Shown here: positions 146 through 15,752 of the stretch, in pieces
Numbering within the stretch: the stretch's first letter is position 1
How the letters are laid out: the number at the start of each line of letters is the position of its first letter
Origin: Halarcobacter mediterraneus
Lineage (GTDB): Bacteria; Campylobacterota; Campylobacteria; Campylobacterales; Arcobacteraceae
Assembly (NCBI RefSeq): GCF_004116625.1
Contig: NZ_NXIE01000008.1
Coordinates: forward strand, 1-43,380
DNA length: 43,380 bases
Reading direction: 5' to 3'
Program-made: the position numbers and the translations under genes
The notes under the pieces: generated by a model
The model's input: the letters and a program-made list of their open reading frames with translations, nothing else
Databases searched by the model: none
What the model was told of the DNA's origin: nothing

Positions 146-174
146 ATTATACAAAGCGTAGCATAAAAGTAGCA
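146..174 (-). promoter_or_regulatory. pta promoter with tandem TGCTAC operator
   Basis: Read on the minus strand, two TGCTAC hexamers (169-174 and 158-163) lie exactly 11 bp apart. Six bases after them comes a consensus TATAAT -10 box (146-151). The pair occupies the place of the -35 element, the arrangement expected for an OmpR-family activator. The same pair precedes the DUF485-1 and DUF4212 operons, and similar repeats lie upstream of DUF485-2. Seen directly: the repeats and the -10. Inferred: that the response regulator at 13526-14188 binds them. Confidence 0.6.
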
Positions 175-1610: not shown

Positions 1611-2231
1611 TTATTTTATTTTTACCTTAGCTTGATTTTTTAATTTTAAAAAGATCATAGCTGTCATTATTGCATCATTATAAGCATCATGTTTCCCAAA
1701 AGGTGGAATATCAAGCTCTTTCATGATAGTATCAAATCTTAAATCAATATTGCTTTGAGGAATCATTTCTATCTTATAATCATAATAAATAGCAGAAACT
1801 TCATAGGCTTTATTTGGTAATCTTATTCCCAATTTTGGTTTTAAATATTTATTTATCATTGCGATGTCAAATTCTAAATAATATCCTACAAGTTTTCTAT
1901 TACCAATAAATTCTAAAAACTCTTCAATAACTATATTTATATCCTCTGCTTCTTCTAAATCACATTCTCTTATGTGATGAACTTTGATTGCTTCAATTTG
2001 TAATTTTGTTTTAGGTTTTATAAATCTAACAAATTTTTTGCTGGCTACGATAGTATTATTTTTTATTAAAACTGCTCCAATTGATATAATATCATCTTCT
2101 AAAGGATTTAATCCTGTTGTCTCACAATCAAAACAAACATACTCATTTTCTACTGCTTTATCAAATAAAAAAGCATATTTTTCATCTTTTAAGTTTTTTC
2201 TATTGAAATAGTTTTTTATTGAATTAAACAT
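1611..2231 (-). CDS. DnaQ-like DEDDh 3'-5' exonuclease (copy 1)
   Basis: This 206-residue protein has a complete DEDDh exonuclease site: D35 and E37 in FDCETTGLNP, D122 in YLEFDIAMI, and H181/D186 in KHDAYNDA. It resembles the proofreading subunit of DNA polymerase III, but it is a stand-alone family often found beside acetate permeases and DUF294 proteins, so a replication role is unlikely. Its start overlaps the end of the DUF294 gene by 8 bp (ATGTTTAA contains both start and stop), implying coupled translation. The substrate is unknown; candidates are small RNAs, oligonucleotides or a nucleotidylated target. A paralogue with the same catalytic positions is at 8654-9286. Confidence 0.85.
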   Translation of the reverse strand: MFNSIKNYFNRKNLKDEKYAFLFDKAVENEYVCFDCETTGLNPLEDDIISIGAVLIKNNTIVASKKFVRFIKPKTKLQIEAIKVHHIRECDLEEAEDINIVIEEFLEFIGNRKLVGYYLEFDIAMINKYLKPKLGIRLPNKAYEVSAIYYDYKIEMIPQSNIDLRFDTIMKELDIPPFGKHDAYNDAIMTAMIFLKLKNQAKVKIK

Positions 2232-4068
2232 AATTTAACTTGTAATGGCTTTCTAAAATTTTCTTTAATTTATTAATAATTTTAAAACTATCTTTTAATA
2301 AATCTTTTTCCATTCTATTTAACTTATCTGGATCAATATAATTATCAATAGTTTGAGCTGAGTCCATTTTTTCAATATTAGATTTTAATTTTAATGAATT
2401 TAAATAATTAAAAGCTTCTGATAATTCTTGAGAGAACTCTTTTGTGAATATATTTTTATCTGTTAATTCTTTTATTCTTTTTAAAGTATTTACTCGCATT
2501 AATTTATATTCTAAGGATAAAGCTCTAACTCCTTGAACAACAATGAAAATACCACCTTTTTTTATATCTAATTCATGTTTATGCTCTTTATCTTTTGAAT
2601 CAAAAACAAAACCATCAAAGAAACCAAGAGGAACATCAAAATCCATAATTATCTTTGCAAAATGCATATAAAAACTTTGAGAGTCTGCACAAACTTTAAA
2701 TAAGTGTTGTTTTAGGTCATCAAGTAATTGTCTATTTCCAGATGCACAAAAAGCATCATAAAAAATAGCAAGGTTCATAAACTTTTCTTCACTTGGATGG
2801 GTAATCCAATCATAGATTAAGTCTTTAAATTCCTTTTGTGTTCTACACCAATAAGGATTCGAAAGCATAATATTACCTTCACATGGAGGAAATCCAAAGT
2901 CTACTAAAGTTTGAGTGTATTCTTTAGTAAAAGTTTCAAGCTTAGCTTTTTCAATTTTGCAGTTATCATCTAGAATTAAAGCATTATCTTGGTCTGTTTT
3001 TAAAATTTGTTCAGCTCTTCCTTCACTTCCCATTACAATTAATGTAGATTTTCCAATGAGTTCTTCTGGTGCTATCATATTAAATAGTTTATCCATGATT
3101 TTTCTATTTAATTGATTTATTAGTTTTGAAATAAATGCAACTTTTACACCTTTTGCATAGAGTGATTTTACAATCTTAAGTAAAGATTGACTTGCAATTT
3201 TTAATTCTTCCACATTTGTAGCTTTTGCAATTTCATTAGAAACAGAGAATGTATGTGTTGCAAAAAATGAAGATAAAGATATTTGATCTAAAACTCCTAC
3301 AATATCATGGTTTGAATTTTTTACTATTAATCTTTTTAATCCATGTTTTGTCATTAGTAGTTGGGCATTAAATAAAAAATCATCTTCATTTACATATTTT
3401 AGACCTGAATTTGAAATTTTACCCACACTATCATCGAAACTCATTTTATTTAAAATTACTTTTTCTCTAAAGTCTGAATCTGTTACTATATGAAGATTTT
3501 TTTCTTTATCTTTTAATAATAATGTAGGAACTTTTTTTTCTTTTAATTGTTTTACTGCTTCATAAATAGAAGTTTCAAAAGGAAGAATTAAAGCTTTATG
3601 AACCCTTGCATCTTTAACTTTTGCAACCATTAGGTTTACTAATTCTTTATTTTTTTCATGGTTTATATTTCCATTTAATTTTTCAGAAATTGATTGAAAG
3701 AAAAAATTCTCAAGGGCAGGGTTCTCATGTAGAACTTGAATAAATATTTCTCTAGGTAAAGTATAACAAATAGTCTCTTCTGTAGTTACAAAACAATTTT
3801 TTGAAAAATTCTCAATTAAGGAAATAGAATCAAAAAATTCATGATTCGAATATAATGATAAGACTTCAGAGTCTTCATTTTTTTCTTGAACTATACCTTT
3901 AATAATAAAATATAAAAATCTAGGTTCTTGTGAGAAATTTTGAATTATCTCTTCTTTTTTTAAATATACAATATCTAAGTTTTCAGCAAAGTATTCAAGT
4001 TGTTTTTTTGTTAGGTTTTCAAAAGGATGAATAGCTTTTAAAAATTTTATTTGTTCTTGTGTGTCCAT
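2224..4068 (-). CDS. cNMP-binding/CBS/DUF294 nucleotidyltransferase-like protein (copy 1)
   Basis: The 614-residue protein has, in order, a cyclic-nucleotide-binding-like domain (about 10-130), a CBS pair (about 150-275), a GlnD-type nucleotidyltransferase-like domain with GSEGR at 347-351 and DQDNAL at 359-364, and a helical DUF294 C-terminal domain. The metal-binding Asp pair and Gly-Ser loop are intact, so transferase activity is plausible but unproven. Such proteins are recurrent neighbours of ActP-type permeases. It is co-expressed with the exonuclease just downstream. A -10-like TATAAT lies at 4095-4100, without the TGCTAC repeats seen before the transporters. No membrane segment is seen. 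The paralogue is at 9286-11103. Confidence 0.85.
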   Translation of the reverse strand: MDTQEQIKFLKAIHPFENLTKKQLEYFAENLDIVYLKKEEIIQNFSQEPRFLYFIIKGIVQEKNEDSEVLSLYSNHEFFDSISLIENFSKNCFVTTEETICYTLPREIFIQVLHENPALENFFFQSISEKLNGNINHEKNKELVNLMVAKVKDARVHKALILPFETSIYEAVKQLKEKKVPTLLLKDKEKNLHIVTDSDFREKVILNKMSFDDSVGKISNSGLKYVNEDDFLFNAQLLMTKHGLKRLIVKNSNHDIVGVLDQISLSSFFATHTFSVSNEIAKATNVEELKIASQSLLKIVKSLYAKGVKVAFISKLINQLNRKIMDKLFNMIAPEELIGKSTLIVMGSEGRAEQILKTDQDNALILDDNCKIEKAKLETFTKEYTQTLVDFGFPPCEGNIMLSNPYWCRTQKEFKDLIYDWITHPSEEKFMNLAIFYDAFCASGNRQLLDDLKQHLFKVCADSQSFYMHFAKIIMDFDVPLGFFDGFVFDSKDKEHKHELDIKKGGIFIVVQGVRALSLEYKLMRVNTLKRIKELTDKNIFTKEFSQELSEAFNYLNSLKLKSNIEKMDSAQTIDNYIDPDKLNRMEKDLLKDSFKIINKLKKILESHYKLNYV

Positions 4069-6195: not shown

Positions 6196-6223
6196 GCTAT
6201 AACAAAGTAGCATCAGCATAGCA
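6196..6223 (-). promoter_or_regulatory. Promoter/operator of DUF485-1/actP-1 with TGCTAT-TGCTAC repeat
   Basis: On the minus strand TGCTAT (6218-6223) and TGCTAC (6207-6212) are 11 bp apart, followed after 5 bases by TATAGC, a plausible -10. The start codon is at 6130. The arrangement matches the pta promoter. Confidence 0.55.
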
Positions 6224-6432: not shown

Positions 6433-8082
6433 TTAGTGGTCTACTGCTCCATCTGCACCAAAACCAGTTTCTGCTCTTATATTTTGAGCTTCATAAGCTT
6501 TTTCTTCATCTTTTGCTCTTTGAGAATTATCAGTAATAGAAAAGAACCAAATAGCAACAAATGCAATAGTTACAGAAAATAGTGCAGGGTGTTTATATGG
6601 GAATAAAGCTTCTTCATTTCCTAAAATTTGTACCCAAACAATTGGTCCTACAATTACTAAAATAACTGCAGTAGCTAATCCTATAATTCCACCTATGAAA
6701 GCACCTCTAGTAGTTAACTTTCTCCAGTAAATTGATAAGAATAAAATTGGGAAGTTTGCTGATGCTGCAATAGCAAATGCTAAACCAACCATAAATGCAA
6801 TATTTTGTTGTTCAAATGCAATCCCTAAAATAACACCAACAAATCCAATTATAATAACAGCAATTTTAGAAACTCTAATCTCTTGCTCTTCTGTAGCATT
6901 TGGATTAATAACAGATGCATAAAGGTCGTGTGAAATTGCAGATGCTCCTGCTAGTGTTAATCCAGCAACAACTGCTAAAATTGTAGCAAAGGCAACAGCT
7001 GAAATAAATCCTAAGAATACGTTACCACCAACAATGTGTGATAAGTGAATTGCCGCCATATTGTTCCCACCAAATAATTTTCCATCAACAAAGTATGCAG
7101 CACCTGCATCAGAGTTTAAGAATACAATAGCACCAAGACCAATAACAGCAATAACTAAATAGAAGTAACCAATAAATCCAGTTGCATAAACAACAGATTT
7201 TCTAGCTTCTTTTGCATTACCAACTGTAAAGAATCTCATTAATACGTGAGGAAGACCCGCCGTACCAAGCATTAATGCAAGTCCTAAAGAAATAGCAGAA
7301 ATAGGGTCAGAAATAAATCCACCTGGCGCCATAATTGCTTGACCTTTTTCATGACTTTCTACTGCTTTTGTTGCTAAAGCTTCAAAAGAAAAACCAAAGT
7401 GACTTAATACCATAAATCCCATAAATGAAACACCAGATAAAAGTAATACAGCTTTAATAATTTGAACCCAAGTAGTTGCAAGCATTCCACCAAAAGTTAC
7501 ATAAATAATCATCATAACTCCAACAAGAATTACTGCATACTCATACTCTAATCCAAATAATACTTGAATTAATTTACCCGAACCAACCATTTGAGCAATT
7601 AAGTATAAAGTTACAACAGATAGTGAACCAAATGCAGCTAAAGTCCTAATCTCTTTTTGACCTAATCTAAATGCAGCAATATCTGTAAATGTAAATTTAC
7701 CTAAGTTTCTTAATCTCTCTGCTAATAAGAATAAAATAACAGGCCAACCAACTAAGAATCCAACGGCATAAATAAGACCATCATATCCACTTAAATAAAC
7801 AAGTCCTGAAATACCAAGGAATGAAGCAGCAGACATATAATCTCCCGCAATTGCCATACCATTTTGGAAACCAGTAATTCCTCCACCAGCTGTATAGAAG
7901 TCACTAGCCGACTTTGTTTTCTTTGCTGCCCAATAAGTGATACCTAGAGTACCACCAACAAAAATAAAAAACATAATAATTGCAGCAACATTAAGTTCTC
8001 TTTTCGATGCTTCAAAATTTGCATCGCCTGCTGCAAATAATGCAACAGAAAATAGTGTAATTAGTGCTAATATTCTTAACAT
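6433..8082 (-). CDS. actP: Cation/acetate symporter, ActP family (copy 2)
   Basis: A 549-residue paralogue of the permease at 4164-5813, of identical length and with the same signal-like N-terminus (MLRILALIT...FAAGDA), [43 protein letters not shown] and [10 protein letters not shown] motifs. Differences cluster in the periplasmic loops and in the segment near residues 225-250. Its start overlaps the DUF485-2 stop by one base. Upstream lies the largest array of TGCTAC-type repeats in the window. Keeping two full-length copies suggests different affinity, substrate or expression rather than decay. Confidence 0.9.
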
Positions 8083-8396
8083 TATAATTCATCCTTTACA
8101 TCTTCTCTTACTTTTTCAATTAATTCTTCAAACTCACCATTTGCTCTTTTTACATAAATAAGTGTTGTAAAGAAACTAATTACAATAATTGCAGCTGCAA
8201 TAGGAAATGCTATAGTCATTACACCATCTCCTGTTCTTATTCCTAATAGTGCTGGTTCAAATGCAATTGTTAAAATAAATGCATAAAATAATACAAGCAC
8301 AAATATTCCAAGTTTAATGGCAAAACTTGTTCTTTTTTTTACTAATTCTTGATAATTAGGATTAGCTTTAATTTTAGATACTAATTGATCGTTCAT
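8082..8396 (-). CDS. DUF485 (YjcH-like) membrane protein (copy 2)
   Basis: A 104-residue DUF485 protein with two membrane segments, similar throughout to the protein at 5813-6130 (both have a KLGIFVLV first helix and end [10 protein letters not shown]...DVKDE/L). It precedes and overlaps actP-2 by one base. A GAAAGGACGAT sequence before the ATG supplies the ribosome-binding site. Its 5' flank up to the exonuclease-2 stop is 257 bp and contains the repeat array. Confidence 0.85.
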
Positions 8397-8554
8397 TATC
8401 GTCCTTTCTTTAGATGATATTTCTAGTTTTCCTGTTAATTTCTAATTTAAATAACAAATGTTCTAGAAAATATTTGAATATTATACATGAGATATTTTTT
8501 TTATACAATTATTATTTGACTATTAAGTCAATTTTAAGGCTTTAAAGGCCCTTA

Positions 8555-8569
8555 GTAACGAATTGTTAC
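8555..8569. repeat. Near-palindrome GTAAC-N5-GTTAC
   Basis: GTAAC (8555-8559) and GTTAC (8565-8569) form a short inverted repeat between the TGCTAC array and the DUF485-2 gene. It falls where the -10 region would be if the array works as at the pta promoter. It may be an operator or chance. Confidence 0.3.
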
Positions 8570-8577
8570 AGGTAAAA

Positions 8578-8643
8578 GTAGCAATAAAATAGCATAATTT
8601 TTAATGCTATTTTATTGCTATGTTCAAGCTATTTTATTGCTAC
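8578..8643. promoter_or_regulatory. Six-unit array of 11-bp-spaced TGCTAT/C hexamers
   Basis: Four hexamers read on the plus strand start at 8605 (TGCTAT), 8616 (TGCTAT), 8627 (AGCTAT) and 8638 (TGCTAC), each exactly 11 bp after the last. Two more read on the minus strand, at 8589-8594 (TGCTAT) and 8578-8583 (TGCTAC), also 11 bp apart and pointing to DUF485-2. The facing halves make a perfect 17-bp inverted repeat (8579-8595 with 8604-8620, 8-nt loop). The same DNA could therefore be both the terminator of the exonuclease-2 operon (T-rich exit on the minus strand) and an operator. A -10 for DUF485-2 is not clear here; TGTAAC, 7 bp downstream, is the best candidate. Confidence 0.55.
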
Positions 8644-8653
8644 GTTTGTAGTT

Positions 8654-9286
8654 TTATCCAGTATAAAAAGTAGAGTTTGCAGGAGATAAATCCCTTAGTT
8701 TTAAAAAAATCATTGAAGTCATAAGTGCATCATTTAAAGCATCATGTTTCCCAAGTTCTGGAATATCTAAATTTTTCATTATTGTGTCAAACTTTAGATC
8801 AACAAATTCATAATCTGAACTTCTTTTTCTTGTTTTAAAATACATAGAAGAAACTTCTATTTGGTGATTAGGCAAAGATACTCCAATGTATTCTTTTGTA
8901 TATTTAGAAATCATGGCAATATCAAATTTTATATAGTAGCCTACAATAGGTCTATTCCCTATAAAATCAAGCAAATTTAAAATAGCTTCTTTAGGTTCAA
9001 TTGCTTTTTGTAAATCTATTGGTCTGATTTGGTGTATTTTAATTGATTCTTCTGTAATTTCTTTAGAGGGTTTTACAAAAATATTTAATGTCTTTCTCAT
9101 TAATATCTTATTTTGTTTTATTCTAACGGCACCAATTGAGAGAATTTCATCTTTTTTGGGATTAAGTCCTGTAGTCTCACAATCTAAACAAACATATTCA
9201 TCTTTTAAAGGGTTATCAAAAAGATATTCATATTTTTTATCTAGTAACTTTTTTCTTTGCCAAGAATTTATTAGTTTTTTAAACAT
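8654..9286 (-). CDS. DnaQ-like DEDDh 3'-5' exonuclease (copy 2)
   Basis: A 210-residue paralogue of the exonuclease at 1611-2231. All five catalytic residues are present at the same positions: D35, E37, D122, H181 and D186. It follows the DUF294 copy 2 gene with a one-base overlap, again implying coupled expression. Compared with copy 1 it has a somewhat different segment around 150-162 (KTRKRSSDYE) and a few extra C-terminal residues. Function in carboxylate metabolism is inferred from genomic company only; the substrate is unknown. Confidence 0.85.
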   Translation of the reverse strand: MFKKLINSWQRKKLLDKKYEYLFDNPLKDEYVCLDCETTGLNPKKDEILSIGAVRIKQNKILMRKTLNIFVKPSKEITEESIKIHQIRPIDLQKAIEPKEAILNLLDFIGNRPIVGYYIKFDIAMISKYTKEYIGVSLPNHQIEVSSMYFKTRKRSSDYEFVDLKFDTIMKNLDIPELGKHDALNDALMTSMIFLKLRDLSPANSTFYTG

Positions 9287-11103
9287 TATGAAATCTTATC
9301 AATTTTAAATACATAAGTAATAAATTTTTTAAAATTATTAACAATTTTAAAACTGTCTTTTAATAAATCTCTTTCTATTTTCCCTAAACTATGGGTATCT
9401 ATTTCATTATTTATTTTTTTAGAATCTTGTATTTTTTGTAAATGTGCTTTAAGTCTTAATGTATTTAATACATCAAATGCTTCTAAAAGTTCATTTGCCA
9501 TTTCTGCTTCTAATATTTTCTTTTGTTGTAATATTTTTATTCTTTTTACTGTTGTTGTTTCTCTAATTCTTTCTCTTAGGCTTAGACTTCTAATTCCTTG
9601 AACAATAGGGAATACACCAGTTTTCTTTATATCAATATTATAAGTTTTTGTCATAAAATTTGCTACTGTACTTGGAGTGTCAAAAGTAAGTGTTGCTCTT
9701 GCAAAATATGCCATAAATACATCTTTATCATGAAGTTTATTAAATAAGTCATCTTTTAAATTGATTAATAATTCTTTATCCCCTGCCACTGCAAAAGAAT
9801 CAAAAAATATTGCTAAATCCATGTAGTTTTGCATATCTGGTGCTTCAATCCATCTTGCTGTATCTTTTTTATAATCATTTACAGTTTTACACCAAAAAGG
9901 ATTTGAAACCATAATATTACCTTCACAAGGAGGATAGCCAAAGTCAATTAATGTTTCTGTAATTTGTTGCATATAGGGTCTATATTGTTCTACATCAGTT
10001 CCATCTTTTACAACAAGTGCATTATCTTGGTCAGTTTTTATTATTTGCTCATTTCTTCCTTCACTTCCCATTACTATTAAGCAGGCATTATTTTGTAGTT
10101 CTTCAGGAACAACAAATTTATATATTTTTTTATAAACTTTTGTATTTAATTGACCAATTAAGTTTGAGATATGATGAACTTTTACACCTTTTGCATTTAA
10201 TGTTTTAACTGTATCAACAAGTTCTCCACTGGCTTCTTTTAAATCTTTTAATGTTCTTGCATTTTTTATTTTTGAGTCAACTACATAAGTGTGGTTTGCA
10301 AAGTGAGATAATACATCAATTTGCTCTAATGTACCTTGGATCTCCCCTTCATTATTTACAACTCCTACTCTTTTGATATTTTTTTTAATTAATAGTGTTA
10401 GCGCTTCAAATAAATAGTCATCTAGGTTAACTGTTAATATAGGTGAAATAGCTATCTCCTCTACTGGAATAGATAAATCTCTGCCTTCTAATAAAACTTT
10501 AATTTTAAGTAATGAATCTGTAATGATTCCATATTTATGTGTGTCAAACTTTACAATTATTGTAGATGTTTCATATTGCATTGATTTATCAATTGCATCA
10601 ATTAATTTGGTTCCTTTTTCTACTATACAAGGAGGGTGTAAAATAGTGTCTTCTACCTTTGCAATCATAAAAGAAGAAAGTTCAGAAGCATATTCTTTAT
10701 CTTTTAGTGTTTGAAATTTATTTACTAAATTGTTTAGGAAAAAGTTTTTAAAGCCGTCATTATTTTCAATTAGTTCCAGAAAAATAGTTTTTTCTATTTC
10801 ATAACAAATTAAATCTTCATATACTTTAAAAGAGTTATTTGTTTTTCCGTATATTAATGAGTTGGCATCAAAAGAGTCTTGATAGTGGTAGTCAACTAAT
10901 ATTTCATCTTCTTTATACTCATGAACGATACCTTTTATAATTACAAAAAAGTGATTAGGAATATTTTCAGGAGTAATTAAAACTTCATCTTTAGGATAAT
11001 AAGCAATATCCATATGTCTAATACATTTATCCATTTGTTCTTCTGTTAAAAGTTCAAAAGGATGAATGTTTGATAAAAAAGATTTTTGATCACGAAGACT
11101 CAT
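9286..11103 (-). CDS. cNMP-binding/CBS/DUF294 nucleotidyltransferase-like protein (copy 2)
   Basis: This 605-residue protein has the same domain order as copy 1: a cNMP-binding-like domain (about 10-130), a CBS pair (about 150-270), a nucleotidyltransferase-like domain with GSEGR at 346-350 and DQDNAL at 358-363, then DUF294_C. The catalytic signature is conserved, while the N-terminal sensory half has diverged far more from copy 1 than the transferase half. This suggests the two copies read different signals but act on similar targets. It is coupled to the exonuclease downstream. A TATAAT at 11141-11146 is its likely -10. Confidence 0.85.
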   Translation of the reverse strand: MSLRDQKSFLSNIHPFELLTEEQMDKCIRHMDIAYYPKDEVLITPENIPNHFFVIIKGIVHEYKEDEILVDYHYQDSFDANSLIYGKTNNSFKVYEDLICYEIEKTIFLELIENNDGFKNFFLNNLVNKFQTLKDKEYASELSSFMIAKVEDTILHPPCIVEKGTKLIDAIDKSMQYETSTIIVKFDTHKYGIITDSLLKIKVLLEGRDLSIPVEEIAISPILTVNLDDYLFEALTLLIKKNIKRVGVVNNEGEIQGTLEQIDVLSHFANHTYVVDSKIKNARTLKDLKEASGELVDTVKTLNAKGVKVHHISNLIGQLNTKVYKKIYKFVVPEELQNNACLIVMGSEGRNEQIIKTDQDNALVVKDGTDVEQYRPYMQQITETLIDFGYPPCEGNIMVSNPFWCKTVNDYKKDTARWIEAPDMQNYMDLAIFFDSFAVAGDKELLINLKDDLFNKLHDKDVFMAYFARATLTFDTPSTVANFMTKTYNIDIKKTGVFPIVQGIRSLSLRERIRETTTVKRIKILQQKKILEAEMANELLEAFDVLNTLRLKAHLQKIQDSKKINNEIDTHSLGKIERDLLKDSFKIVNNFKKFITYVFKIDKIS

Positions 11104-13411: not shown

Positions 13412-13441
13412 ATAATAACAGTTTGTAGCAAAAAGGTAGCA
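13412..13441 (-). promoter_or_regulatory. Promoter/operator of DUF4212/symporter with tandem TGCTAC
   Basis: On the minus strand two perfect TGCTAC hexamers (13436-13441 and 13425-13430) are 11 bp apart. Seven bases later comes TATTAT (13412-13417), a plausible -10, with the start codon at 13349. This is the same layout as at pta. Confidence 0.6.
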
Positions 13442-13525: not shown

Positions 13526-14188
13526 CTAAACTGAATAAAATCTATCGATTTTGTAGCCTAAACCTCTAATATTTTTAATAAAATCCTCTTTTAGAGCTTT
13601 TTTAAGTCTTGATATTTCTGCTCTTATTGTAGGATTATCAATATTTTCCCCTCCCCAGATGTCAATTCTAAATCTTTCAAAGTCAACAATCATATTAATA
13701 TTAAGGGCTAAAATATGGATAATATCCAATTGTTTTTTAGTTAAAGTTTGTGGTTCAGAGTTAAAATATAGAGTTTTTTCACTCTTAGAGTAAGAATAAT
13801 TCTCTGAAAATCTTATATGAGAAGTGTTACTTTGGTCTTTTTTTAAGATTTGATTTATTTTTATTCCTAACTCTTCTAAATGAAAAGGTTTCTTTATATA
13901 TTCTCTACAACCTAAATCATATGCTTTTGTAATATCTTCTATATCTAAAAGAGCAGATATATAAATTGTAGGAATATAGATTTTTTGATTATTCAATTCT
14001 TCTAATATTTGAAAACCATTCTTTTTAGGTACATTAATATCTAAGATTAATAAATCATAAGAAGAATCTACATGTTCAATTACTTCTTCACCATCAGTAA
14101 AACTTTCAACCATATGACCAATATCCTTTAAATATTCAGATATTGTATTATTTAACATTAGTTCATCTTCAAGTAGTAGTATTTTCAT
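13526..14188 (-). CDS. OmpR-family response regulator
   Basis: This 220-residue protein has a receiver domain (E7/D8, phospho-acceptor D50 in LILDINVP, K100 in IKKPF) and a C-terminal OmpR/PhoB winged helix (about 125-218, including the ...EISRLKKAL recognition region and GLGYKI wing). It is the cytoplasmic output of the kinase encoded immediately upstream, overlapping it by 20 bp. OmpR-type regulators usually bind direct repeats spaced about one helical turn, which fits the 11-bp TGCTAC repeats upstream of pta and the three transporter operons. That link is inference. A terminator follows at 13491-13515. Confidence 0.9.
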   Translation of the reverse strand: MKILLLEDELMLNNTISEYLKDIGHMVESFTDGEEVIEHVDSSYDLLILDINVPKKNGFQILEELNNQKIYIPTIYISALLDIEDITKAYDLGCREYIKKPFHLEELGIKINQILKKDQSNTSHIRFSENYSYSKSEKTLYFNSEPQTLTKKQLDIIHILALNINMIVDFERFRIDIWGGENIDNPTIRAEISRLKKALKEDFIKNIRGLGYKIDRFYSV

Positions 14189-15752
14189 TTATTTTAAACC
14201 TATAAGTGAATTTTGTATATTTCTCATTGGAATCTAAATCAATTATAACTAAATTTTTATCACATATTTCTTTTACTATTCTAAGGCCCAGGCCAAAGCC
14301 ACCCCTTGAATCATTTTCTCTATAAAAATCACTAAAAATCTTATTAGTGTCTTCGATTTTTTCTGAATTTGTTTTAACAGAGAATTTAATTATATCTTCA
14401 TCTAAATATGAAAGTTTAATATAAATAGGTGATTTTGCTTTTGAATATTTAATTGAGTTTGATATATTGTTATCTACTATTCTTTGCAATTCTGTTTTAT
14501 TGAATTTTATATATATATCTTCTTCTATATTACTTACAAAATATAAGTCATTTGCAATTGCAATACTATCAAAGAAGTTTAGTCTTTCAATTAAATAGGC
14601 TGAAAAGTTTATATACTCTTTAGGGTATTCAACTCTATCTTTTTTTATTAAATATGATAGGTCATCATAAATATATTGAATTATTTTTGTTCCACTTTCT
14701 ATATTTGATATATATTTGTTATTTGGAGTATGCCTTTTTAATAGGTCTATATTTGTTCTTATAATGGCTAAAGGAGTATTTACTTCATGTACAGAATTTT
14801 TAAGAAATTTTTTTTGTGATTCAAGTAAATTACTTAGTTCTTTTGTTTGTTCATTTACTTTCTCTTCTAGATGGGTATTTAGTCCTTGTAGCATTTGATT
14901 TTTATCTTTTATACTATGCATTGCATCATATGCATAGTTTGCAATAACTTTAAACTCTCCAAATATTAATCTATTTTGACTTATTCTTGTATCTGATTTT
15001 TGGGTTTCCTTTAAGTATTTACCAATTTCTTTAACATCATTAACTATAAGAATAGTTGCATTTTTATAAATAAAGATAGAATATAAGACAAGCATAATTG
15101 TTAATGATAAAATTTGAAGGATATAGTTTGATATTTTTTCATCATGCTCTTTTCTTTTTGTTTTAATTACTTCATCTATTTCATCTAAGTAGATTCCTCT
15201 TCCTATTGTCCAATTCCAAGGCTTGTATGATAAAGCATAAGATATTTTAAGAGCTTCTTTTTTTAATTGGGGTTTATACCAAATATATTTGACAAAACCA
15301 CCTTTGTCTTTTTTTGAAATATCAATTAGTTCTTTTATAACTTTTTTCCCACTGGGGTCTTTAAATTCATATAAATTTTTCCCTATATTCTCTTCAAGTA
15401 TAGGATAATAAATAGATGTTCCTTCAAAATCATAGATGAAAGCATAGTCATTTAGATTTGTTTTGTCTCTCATTGTTTCTATTGCATGAAGTATATCTTT
15501 TTTTATTTTCTCTTCACTTTTTATATTTTTATAGGTAGTGTGATAATAATGAATGAATTTTAGTGTTCTTTTTATATCTGCTTGAATTAAATCTTTTTGT
15601 TTTGCATAATAGTTGTCTTTTATAATTTTTATTTTTTCATCAAAGTCATCAAAAGCATTGTTGATAATAATAAAAGTAAAAGAAGATGTTAAGAAAACAA
15701 TAAAGATTATACTATAAAGAATTAAGTGGTATAAAGATTTTGCTCTAATCAT
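14169..15752 (-). CDS. Cache-domain sensor histidine kinase
   Basis: The 527-residue inner-membrane kinase has a first membrane helix at about 9-31, a periplasmic single-Cache-type domain (about 35-205, with YAFIYDFEGTSIYYP, GGFVKYIW and PWNWTIGRGIY features), a second helix at about 209-229, a coiled stretch, a HisKA dimerisation region with H322 in SVHEVNTPL, and an ATPase domain with NNISNSIKYS and GGFGLGLRIV. Cache domains of this type often bind small organic acids. Given the flanking transporters, acetate or a related carboxylate is the likely ligand, but this is not shown by sequence. No TGCTAC repeat is seen before it, so autoregulation is not evident. Confidence 0.88.
   Translation of the reverse strand: MIRAKSLYHLILYSIIFIVFLTSSFTFIIINNAFDDFDEKIKIIKDNYYAKQKDLIQADIKRTLKFIHYYHTTYKNIKSEEKIKKDILHAIETMRDKTNLNDYAFIYDFEGTSIYYPILEENIGKNLYEFKDPSGKKVIKELIDISKKDKGGFVKYIWYKPQLKKEALKISYALSYKPWNWTIGRGIYLDEIDEVIKTKRKEHDEKISNYILQILSLTIMLVLYSIFIYKNATILIVNDVKEIGKYLKETQKSDTRISQNRLIFGEFKVIANYAYDAMHSIKDKNQMLQGLNTHLEEKVNEQTKELSNLLESQKKFLKNSVHEVNTPLAIIRTNIDLLKRHTPNNKYISNIESGTKIIQYIYDDLSYLIKKDRVEYPKEYINFSAYLIERLNFFDSIAIANDLYFVSNIEEDIYIKFNKTELQRIVDNNISNSIKYSKAKSPIYIKLSYLDEDIIKFSVKTNSEKIEDTNKIFSDFYRENDSRGGFGLGLRIVKEICDKNLVIIDLDSNEKYTKFTYRFKINENTTT

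Follow-up and report, generated by a model that had tools for sequence, protein, structure and literature searches.

A six-module TGCTAY-type array between exonuclease-2 and actP-2 in Halarcobacter mediterraneus, a probable target of an OmpR/PhoB-family response regulator

In the activation layout typical of PhoB, tandem modules recur every 11 bp and about 10 bp separate the last module from the −10 box. ArcA of Escherichia coli, a member of the OmpR/PhoB family that controls carbon oxidation, recognizes direct-repeat elements spaced 11 bp centre-to-centre, with three to five elements in 92 sites versus two in 66; according to the accessible part of that report, the arrangement of the elements dictates the length of the site and a concentration-sensitive occupancy (PMC3798270). 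In Sulfurospirillum, which belongs to the same phylum as the organism studied here, the sites of the OmpR-family regulator PceP at pceAB are CTATA repeats with 6-nt gaps, i.e. an 11-bp period. As described in the available sections, they either overlap the −35 element or sit 85 bp upstream of the start, in the latter case between two operons, both of which the site is thought to serve (PMC7755780). Two-component control of acetate or pyruvate use has been described for CrbS/CrbR and RpuS/RpuR, whose sensor kinases are of the SLC5/STAC type (PMC9100948, PMC8402216, accessible parts). For the Arcobacter group, the accessible text of the A. butzleri genome paper states that functional prediction was impossible for most of its two-component systems (PMC2147049). 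A 2019 review, in its available sections, mentions an effect of ECF sigma factors on ackA and pta in Arcobacter and states that, beyond the regulatory proteins it discusses, no functions have been reported for those of Arcobacter (PMC6682613).

The window analyzed here is a stretch of 43,380 nucleotides that makes up one whole contig (C8) of the 2.83-Mb genome of the marine bacterium H. mediterraneus (G000), and the relatives with which it was compared are Arcobacteraceae. Its symporter promoter resembles the pho box, with 11-bp tandem modules and about 10 bp to the −10 box, whereas the array upstream of actP-2 lies at least 92 bp upstream and not at −35. The array is similar to ArcA sites in consisting of multi-module direct repeats at 11-bp spacing. 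It differs from them in its element and its proposed regulator, and its six modules in two opposed groups form a palindrome, a layout not described for ArcA in the accessible part of PMC3798270. With PceP it shares the 11-bp repeat period, a far-upstream site and, as we propose, a regulator of the OmpR family; the PceP regulon, in contrast, concerns tetrachloroethene, its consensus is CTATW-N17-CTATW, and the available sections describe no hairpin (PMC7755780). As with CrbS/CrbR and RpuS/RpuR, we propose two-component control of acetate use, but the window encodes a Cache-domain kinase and an OmpR-family regulator (PMC9100948, PMC8402216, accessible parts). Multi-module 11-bp arrays are thus already known; what is new here is the motif and the regulon it probably defines, the arrangement of modules back to back in opposed groups, and the way in which the site changes position from one relative to another. 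In our literature search, which covered mostly open-access papers, no such regulon was found for Arcobacteraceae among the papers listed, no paper on an overlapping terminator and operator was found, and none of the papers on acetate or pyruvate two-component systems among the matches listed named Campylobacterota.

On the minus strand, the genes follow the order Cache-domain histidine kinase, RR1 (the OmpR-family regulator), VC_2705-type symporter, DUF294 protein, exonuclease-2, the array, DUF485-actP-2, DUF485-actP-1, a second DUF294 gene with a second exonuclease gene, and ackA. The exonuclease-DUF294 pair occurs twice (1611–4068 and 8654–11103), at approximately 40–52% identity, each time beside an actP operon. 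The features referred to below are as follows.

158–174, minus strand: site pair preceding a gene that is cut off by the contig end and is read as pta
6207–6223, minus strand: site pair at actP-1, 19 bp downstream of the actP-1 −10 box TATAAT (6248–6243)
6433–8082, minus strand: actP-2, cation/acetate symporter (family match)
8082–8396, minus strand: small gene upstream of actP-2, which we take to be DUF485 (no family profile match reached its cut-off)
8480–8485, minus strand: predicted −10 box TATAAT of DUF485-actP-2, within TGTATAAT, conserved among relatives
8523–8538, plus strand: 11-bp tandem, CTTAA-N6-CTTAA in gene sense, ATTAAG-N5-TTTAAG on the plus strand, an HP1043/CosR-like box
8555–8569, no strand assigned: GTAAC-N5-GTTAC element, GTTAC ending 69 bp before the −10 box
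8578–8594, minus strand: forward (gene-sense) pair TGCTAT-N5-TGCTAC, two modules, ending 92 bp upstream of the actP-2 −10 box
8579–8620, no strand assigned: perfect 17-bp inverted repeat with an 8-nt loop, a possible weak terminator of exonuclease-2, with the minus-strand tail CTTTTACC
8605–8643, plus strand: four modules of opposite orientation, TGCTAT, TGCTAT, AGCTAT and TGCTAC
8654–9286, minus strand: exonuclease-2, 3'-5' exonuclease of the PRK09145 family (family match)
13425–13441, minus strand: site pair of the VC_2705-type symporter promoter, with the −10 box TATACT 10 bp downstream (13414–13409)
13526–14188, minus strand: RR1, OmpR/PhoB-family response regulator with receiver and Trans_reg_C domains (Response_reg and Trans_reg_C matches), the proposed binder
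14169–15752, minus strand: sensor histidine kinase with a Cache domain, its N-terminal part MctS-like but far under the MctS cut-off

The first-pass annotation had described four plus-strand and two minus-strand hexamers on an 11-bp period, a perfect 17-bp inverted repeat with an 8-nt loop, and a location between the exonuclease-2 stop and the actP-2 operon. All three descriptions were confirmed from the sequence: the plus-strand hexamers start at 8605 (TGCTAT), 8616 (TGCTAT), 8627 (AGCTAT) and 8638 (TGCTAC), the minus-strand hexamers are TGCTAC (8583–8578) and TGCTAT (8594–8589), and all steps within both groups of these six TGCTAY-type modules are 11 bp. The arms of the repeat, the longest perfect one in the window with a loop of 3–10, are 8579–8595 and 8604–8620, and the array lies between the exonuclease-2 stop codon (8654–8656, minus strand) and the start of DUF485-actP-2 (8396). 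The statement that the two groups face each other was wrong. When module direction is set from the side on which the −10 box lies in symporter promoters, the groups diverge (<-<- ->->->->), two modules pointing toward actP-2 and four away from it. The half-sites are direct repeats about 11 bp apart, as in the tandem sites of the OmpR/PhoB family. The six-hexamer array and its inverted repeat are not due to chance: GCTA at 11-bp steps never exceeded two in a run in 60 simulated windows, and 10 simulated windows contained no perfect inverted repeat of at least 17 bp. Runs of three modules gave 25 overlapping matches in eight same-genus genomes versus none for the reversed string, a lenient control that holds CG, which is rare in window DNA.

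The motif was most regular in the gap between RR1 and the symporter gene. The forward pair TGCTAY-N5-TGCTAY was found there exactly in 59 of 61 loci and with at most one mismatch in all 61, and it was reversed in none; among 14 loci added later, 13 had the exact pair, all had it with at most one mismatch, and again it was never reversed. The pair was thereby present in all 75 symporter-bearing loci of the 79 RR1-type loci, and the remaining four, all of one genus, have neither a symporter nor a pair after RR1. A −10 box lay exactly 10 bp downstream of the pair in 61/61 and in the 14/14 later loci, and a third module was found at none of the 61 symporter pairs. In the control gaps, exact pairs numbered 0/60 between the symporter and DUF294 genes (one with one mismatch), 0/40 between the exonuclease gene and ackA, and 1/52 between actP and DUF294 genes. 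The gaps between two ackA genes (0/20 in the last 1000 bp) were dropped as a control, since the whole gap holds a pair in 5/5 further loci; such gaps can hold further genes and promoters, probably including pta. Because the pair and its −10 box at 10 bp occur in all symporter loci, the array upstream of actP-2 is most plausibly interpreted as a set of binding sites for RR1 or its paralogue.

RR1 is encoded in the same cluster as the array. A paralogue, RR2, is 54% identical to RR1 with a nearly identical recognition-helix region; in G000 it is encoded on contig C2 (L209:3991–4650) near an exaC-like acetaldehyde dehydrogenase gene that has its own TGCTAY sites (L209:2024). Three-module runs lie less than 3 kb from RR2 in seven of the eight same-genus genomes searched. 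An Aliarcobacter-like group (L153, L154, L157–L160, L162–L164) keeps the sites and has no second, RR2-like regulator among the matches listed (to approximately 220 bits), and three genomes (G044, G052 and G072) have RR2-like regulators only, yet carry a pair approximately 60 bp before the DUF485 gene. RR1 is the simplest and most likely candidate binder of the array; RR2 could be the binder instead, and either or both may bind. Comparison of genomes and recognition-helix regions did not separate the two. Seven checked genomes are without an intact RR1, and the symporter match is absent in five of them. The two exceptions were rejected as natural RR1 knock-outs: in G026, RR1 (L208:14140–14798) is present beside a symporter with an intact site and is split by a frame change (an assembly error or a broken gene), and the G019 symporter match is only partial and lies on a short contig; neither case provides a test.

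Across 104 genomes of the family we counted 837 exact pairs, approximately eight per genome, with overlapping pairs in longer arrays counted separately; in a genome the size of G000, the window dinucleotides would lead one to expect about 1.7 pairs to first order. The reversed pattern gave 28 matches in the same genomes, but only about 0.02 matches to it are expected per genome as against 1.7, and the excess is therefore closer to fivefold than to thirtyfold. On checking, this control proved too lenient and was set aside as overstating the excess. G000 holds 12 exact pairs, five of them inside the window. Ten genomes without a close RR1 or RR2 nonetheless hold 43 pairs, 30 of which are in four genomes of one genus (G037–G040). 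Some exact sites precede plausible targets (an exaC-like gene, the genes for the cytochrome b subunit of fumarate reductase and the small subunit of hydrogenase) and others fall within genes or at their ends (L003, L006), so that not all matches can be regarded as functional. The gene downstream of the pair at 158–174 is presumably pta, judging by its N-terminus, and this site suggests that acetate activation probably belongs to the same regulon.

At actP-2, the relevant gap is that between the exonuclease and DUF485 genes, which follow one another in 56 of 61 loci, the window included. A forward pair with at most one mismatch occurs between the exonuclease gene and actP-2 in 46 of these 56 loci and in 9/9 later ones. 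Reverse (plus-oriented) pairs with at most one mismatch were found in 13 of the 56 regions, all within one 15-row clade with a support of 98 (the window, L106, L107, L108, L110, L111, L112, L115, L116, L117, L118, L122 and L123), and lie 88–142 bp before the −10 box. Of the 15 rows, two are without a reverse pair: L113 has single cores, and L109, the only same-genus genome without a pair at this place, has one lone GCTA core and only the actP-1-type copy left. The nine further loci gave one reverse pair (L217), which contains a mismatch and lies in an unrelated hairpin. In L116, L117, L118, L122 and L123 the reverse pair is the sole pair, and in L115 the forward pair is found only near the gene start; these six genomes have neither an adjacent forward pair nor a long stem, the longest stem being nine pairs. 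As the reverse pair is kept in these six relatives without a long stem, the sites outlive the hairpin, and it is the sites rather than the hairpin that appear to be conserved. A helical phasing of the reverse pairs was weak: a first test on six lineage values gave a p of 0.005, and on rechecking the p was 0.013 (10.5-bp turn) or 0.05 (11-bp turn) with L115 included, and 0.03 or 0.11 for the six values.

The comparison with close relatives, which the first-pass annotation had proposed as a check, turned out differently for the two aspects of the array: the sites are kept (forward pair in 5/5, reverse pair in 13/15), but the palindrome is not conserved beyond the window's clade. The annotation had also stated that no plus-strand gene explains the plus-oriented sites. 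This holds in so far as no consistent plus-strand −10 box follows them, but no such gene is needed, since a sister clade (L116, L117, L122 and L123) retains only the reverse pair upstream of actP-2.

The promoter downstream of the array has a conserved frame consisting of TGTATAAT, the CTTAA tandem 37 and 48 bp before it, and GTTAC 69 bp before it. GTTAC stands 69–72 bp before the −10 box in many relatives of several genera. The tandem agrees with the HP1043/CosR box TTTAAG-N5-TTTAAG in 11 of 12 letters, and it is likely that a second OmpR-type input reaches actP-2 through it. In many relatives, the actP-2 promoter carries an HP1043/CosR-like box at a constant position. The array itself does not take the −35-replacing position known from PhoB: a weak AACAAT is found about 10 bp on, and the conserved TGTATAAT is 92 bp away. 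The distance from the forward upstream pair to the −10 box is 92 bp throughout the five-genome clade to which the window belongs (the window, L106, L107, L108 and L110), 91 bp in L139 and L114, and 112 bp in L161, and the sequence in between has partly diverged despite the kept spacing.

We therefore consider it probable, at roughly 70%, that the feature is a six-module cis-regulatory array at actP-2, serving a response regulator of the OmpR/PhoB family among which RR1 is the likeliest. The motif, its orientation, spacing and conservation, and the neighbouring regulator gene are direct observations; from the conserved motif, the OmpR-family regulator in the cluster and the fixed spacing to the promoter we infer that the array controls actP-2. 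RR1, probably nutrient-responsive and encoded together with the Cache-domain histidine kinase five kb from the array, would bind the modules with one protomer per 11-bp module (TGCTAY plus 5 bp) and with dimers on tandem pairs. On the back-to-back modules, two toward actP-2 and four away, the bound regulator would act approximately 92 to 160 bp upstream of the −10 box in TGTATAAT, probably as an upstream activator, and the number of modules may tune occupancy. The hairpin would for the most part arise incidentally from near-identical sites that run in opposite directions, although it may have been recruited to form the 3' end of the exonuclease transcript. The feature would then be a true regulatory array, familiar in type but unusually laid out, that may additionally serve as a gene end. 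The proposal provides a concrete motif and a candidate regulator for the uptake of acetate and related carboxylates in Arcobacteraceae.

The palindrome could instead be chiefly the intrinsic terminator of the symporter-DUF294-exonuclease transcript, with the hexamers kept for the sake of the stem. The minus-strand stem is stable (−21.5 kcal/mol, z −7.2) and lies 33 nt after the exonuclease-2 stop codon, and in a scan of 8300–8800 for terminator-like sites the hairpin was the sole site versus 0.2 expected; over 20 kb, however, the same scan gave 10 sites versus 6.8 expected. All five perfect inverted repeats of at least 12 bp in the window, that of the array included, are at the 3' end of a minus-strand gene, and in several other genera (e.g. 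L127, L132, L158 and L160) the exonuclease stop is followed by hairpins unrelated to this one. On the other hand, the long palindrome built from the sites was seen only in the five-genome clade of the window, apart from L112 with its 17-pair stem that includes G-U, the reverse pair is found in six genomes with no long stem, and four modules stand in a run where two are enough for the stem. The inner 15 stem pairs are perfect in four of the five clade genomes; L106 breaks three and can fold with another module. One of the 15 pairs changes on both sides, from U-A to A-U, in 2/5 genomes, but this covariation is not beyond that of shuffles (49/500 as high) and was discarded as proof of an RNA stem. 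Only 4 of the 17 stem pairs are G-C, other gene-end hairpins of the contig being A+T-rich as well, and the tail CTTTTACC is rather short on T (four in eight). A known structured RNA was rejected after an Rfam search, in which the five matches up to an E of 1 all fell short of their gathering scores and belonged to unrelated kinds. On balance, we find a primarily terminating role unlikely; the hairpin may end the exonuclease transcript in the window's clade, a role that is not conserved.

The first-pass annotation had suggested that the same DNA terminates one operon and controls the next, and that bound regulator could couple the two. Control of actP-2 is well in line with the conserved motif, the regulator in the cluster and the fixed spacing to the −10 box, whereas for termination, which is possible, the favourable gene-end position has to be weighed against a tail with rather few T and the 4/17 G-C pairs. 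Coupling could not be supported, as we saw no sequence signature of it. A working array that is also a working terminator, in which the bound regulator changes termination, would account for the coexistence of both sets of features in the window and its clade; given the missing signature and a palindrome not conserved beyond the clade, we hold this to be somewhat more doubtful even than termination as the chief role. A plus-strand transcript antisense to exonuclease-2, driven by the four plus-oriented modules, appears highly improbable. In some genomes, among them L106, L107 and that of the window, plus-strand TATAA or TATAG does lie 8–19 bp past the array, but these letters are exonuclease codons for FYT and are found also in outgroups without reverse pairs (e.g. 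L114, L119 and L121), and a −10-like match 8–12 bp beyond the pair accompanies 5 of 13 reverse pairs as compared with 61 of 61 symporter pairs. An antisense promoter was rejected on these grounds.

For the regulatory array preferred here, the placement of the sites in relatives bears on the direction of its effect. In many of them the pair lies 11–24 bp downstream of TATAAT, namely in 22/27 genomes at actP-1, where the distance is 11–20 bp, and in 21/46 at actP-2, a placement that suggests repression, and the sign of regulation at actP-2 is accordingly uncertain. A −10-like match 10 bp after the pair is found at actP-2 in 22 of the 46, the weak AACAAT of the window counted among them. In the clade of the window, the actP-2 pair stands far upstream instead of downstream of TATAAT. 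One may tentatively picture a single regulator that works in three geometries within the 13-kb acetate cluster, as an activator at the symporter, as a roadblock 19 bp past the −10 box at actP-1, and from a back-to-back upstream array at actP-2, where the window's clade would have lost the downstream operator and expanded the upstream site mostly in reverse, thereby turning repression into activation and supplying a gene-end hairpin. The relatives offer a natural series of one promoter with its site downstream, at −35, or upstream in either orientation, so that the dependence of the effect of an OmpR-type regulator on position and orientation is directly testable.

Two further variants were seen. 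In the exonuclease-DUF485 gap of another genus (L222), four forward modules stand in a row just downstream of TATAAT; the number of modules thus varies in the operator position too. At actP-2 in L133, L142, L143, L145–L147, L150–L154, L157–L160 and L162–L164, the second half-site is TGCAAC in place of TGCTAY, often with a −10-like box ten bp downstream.
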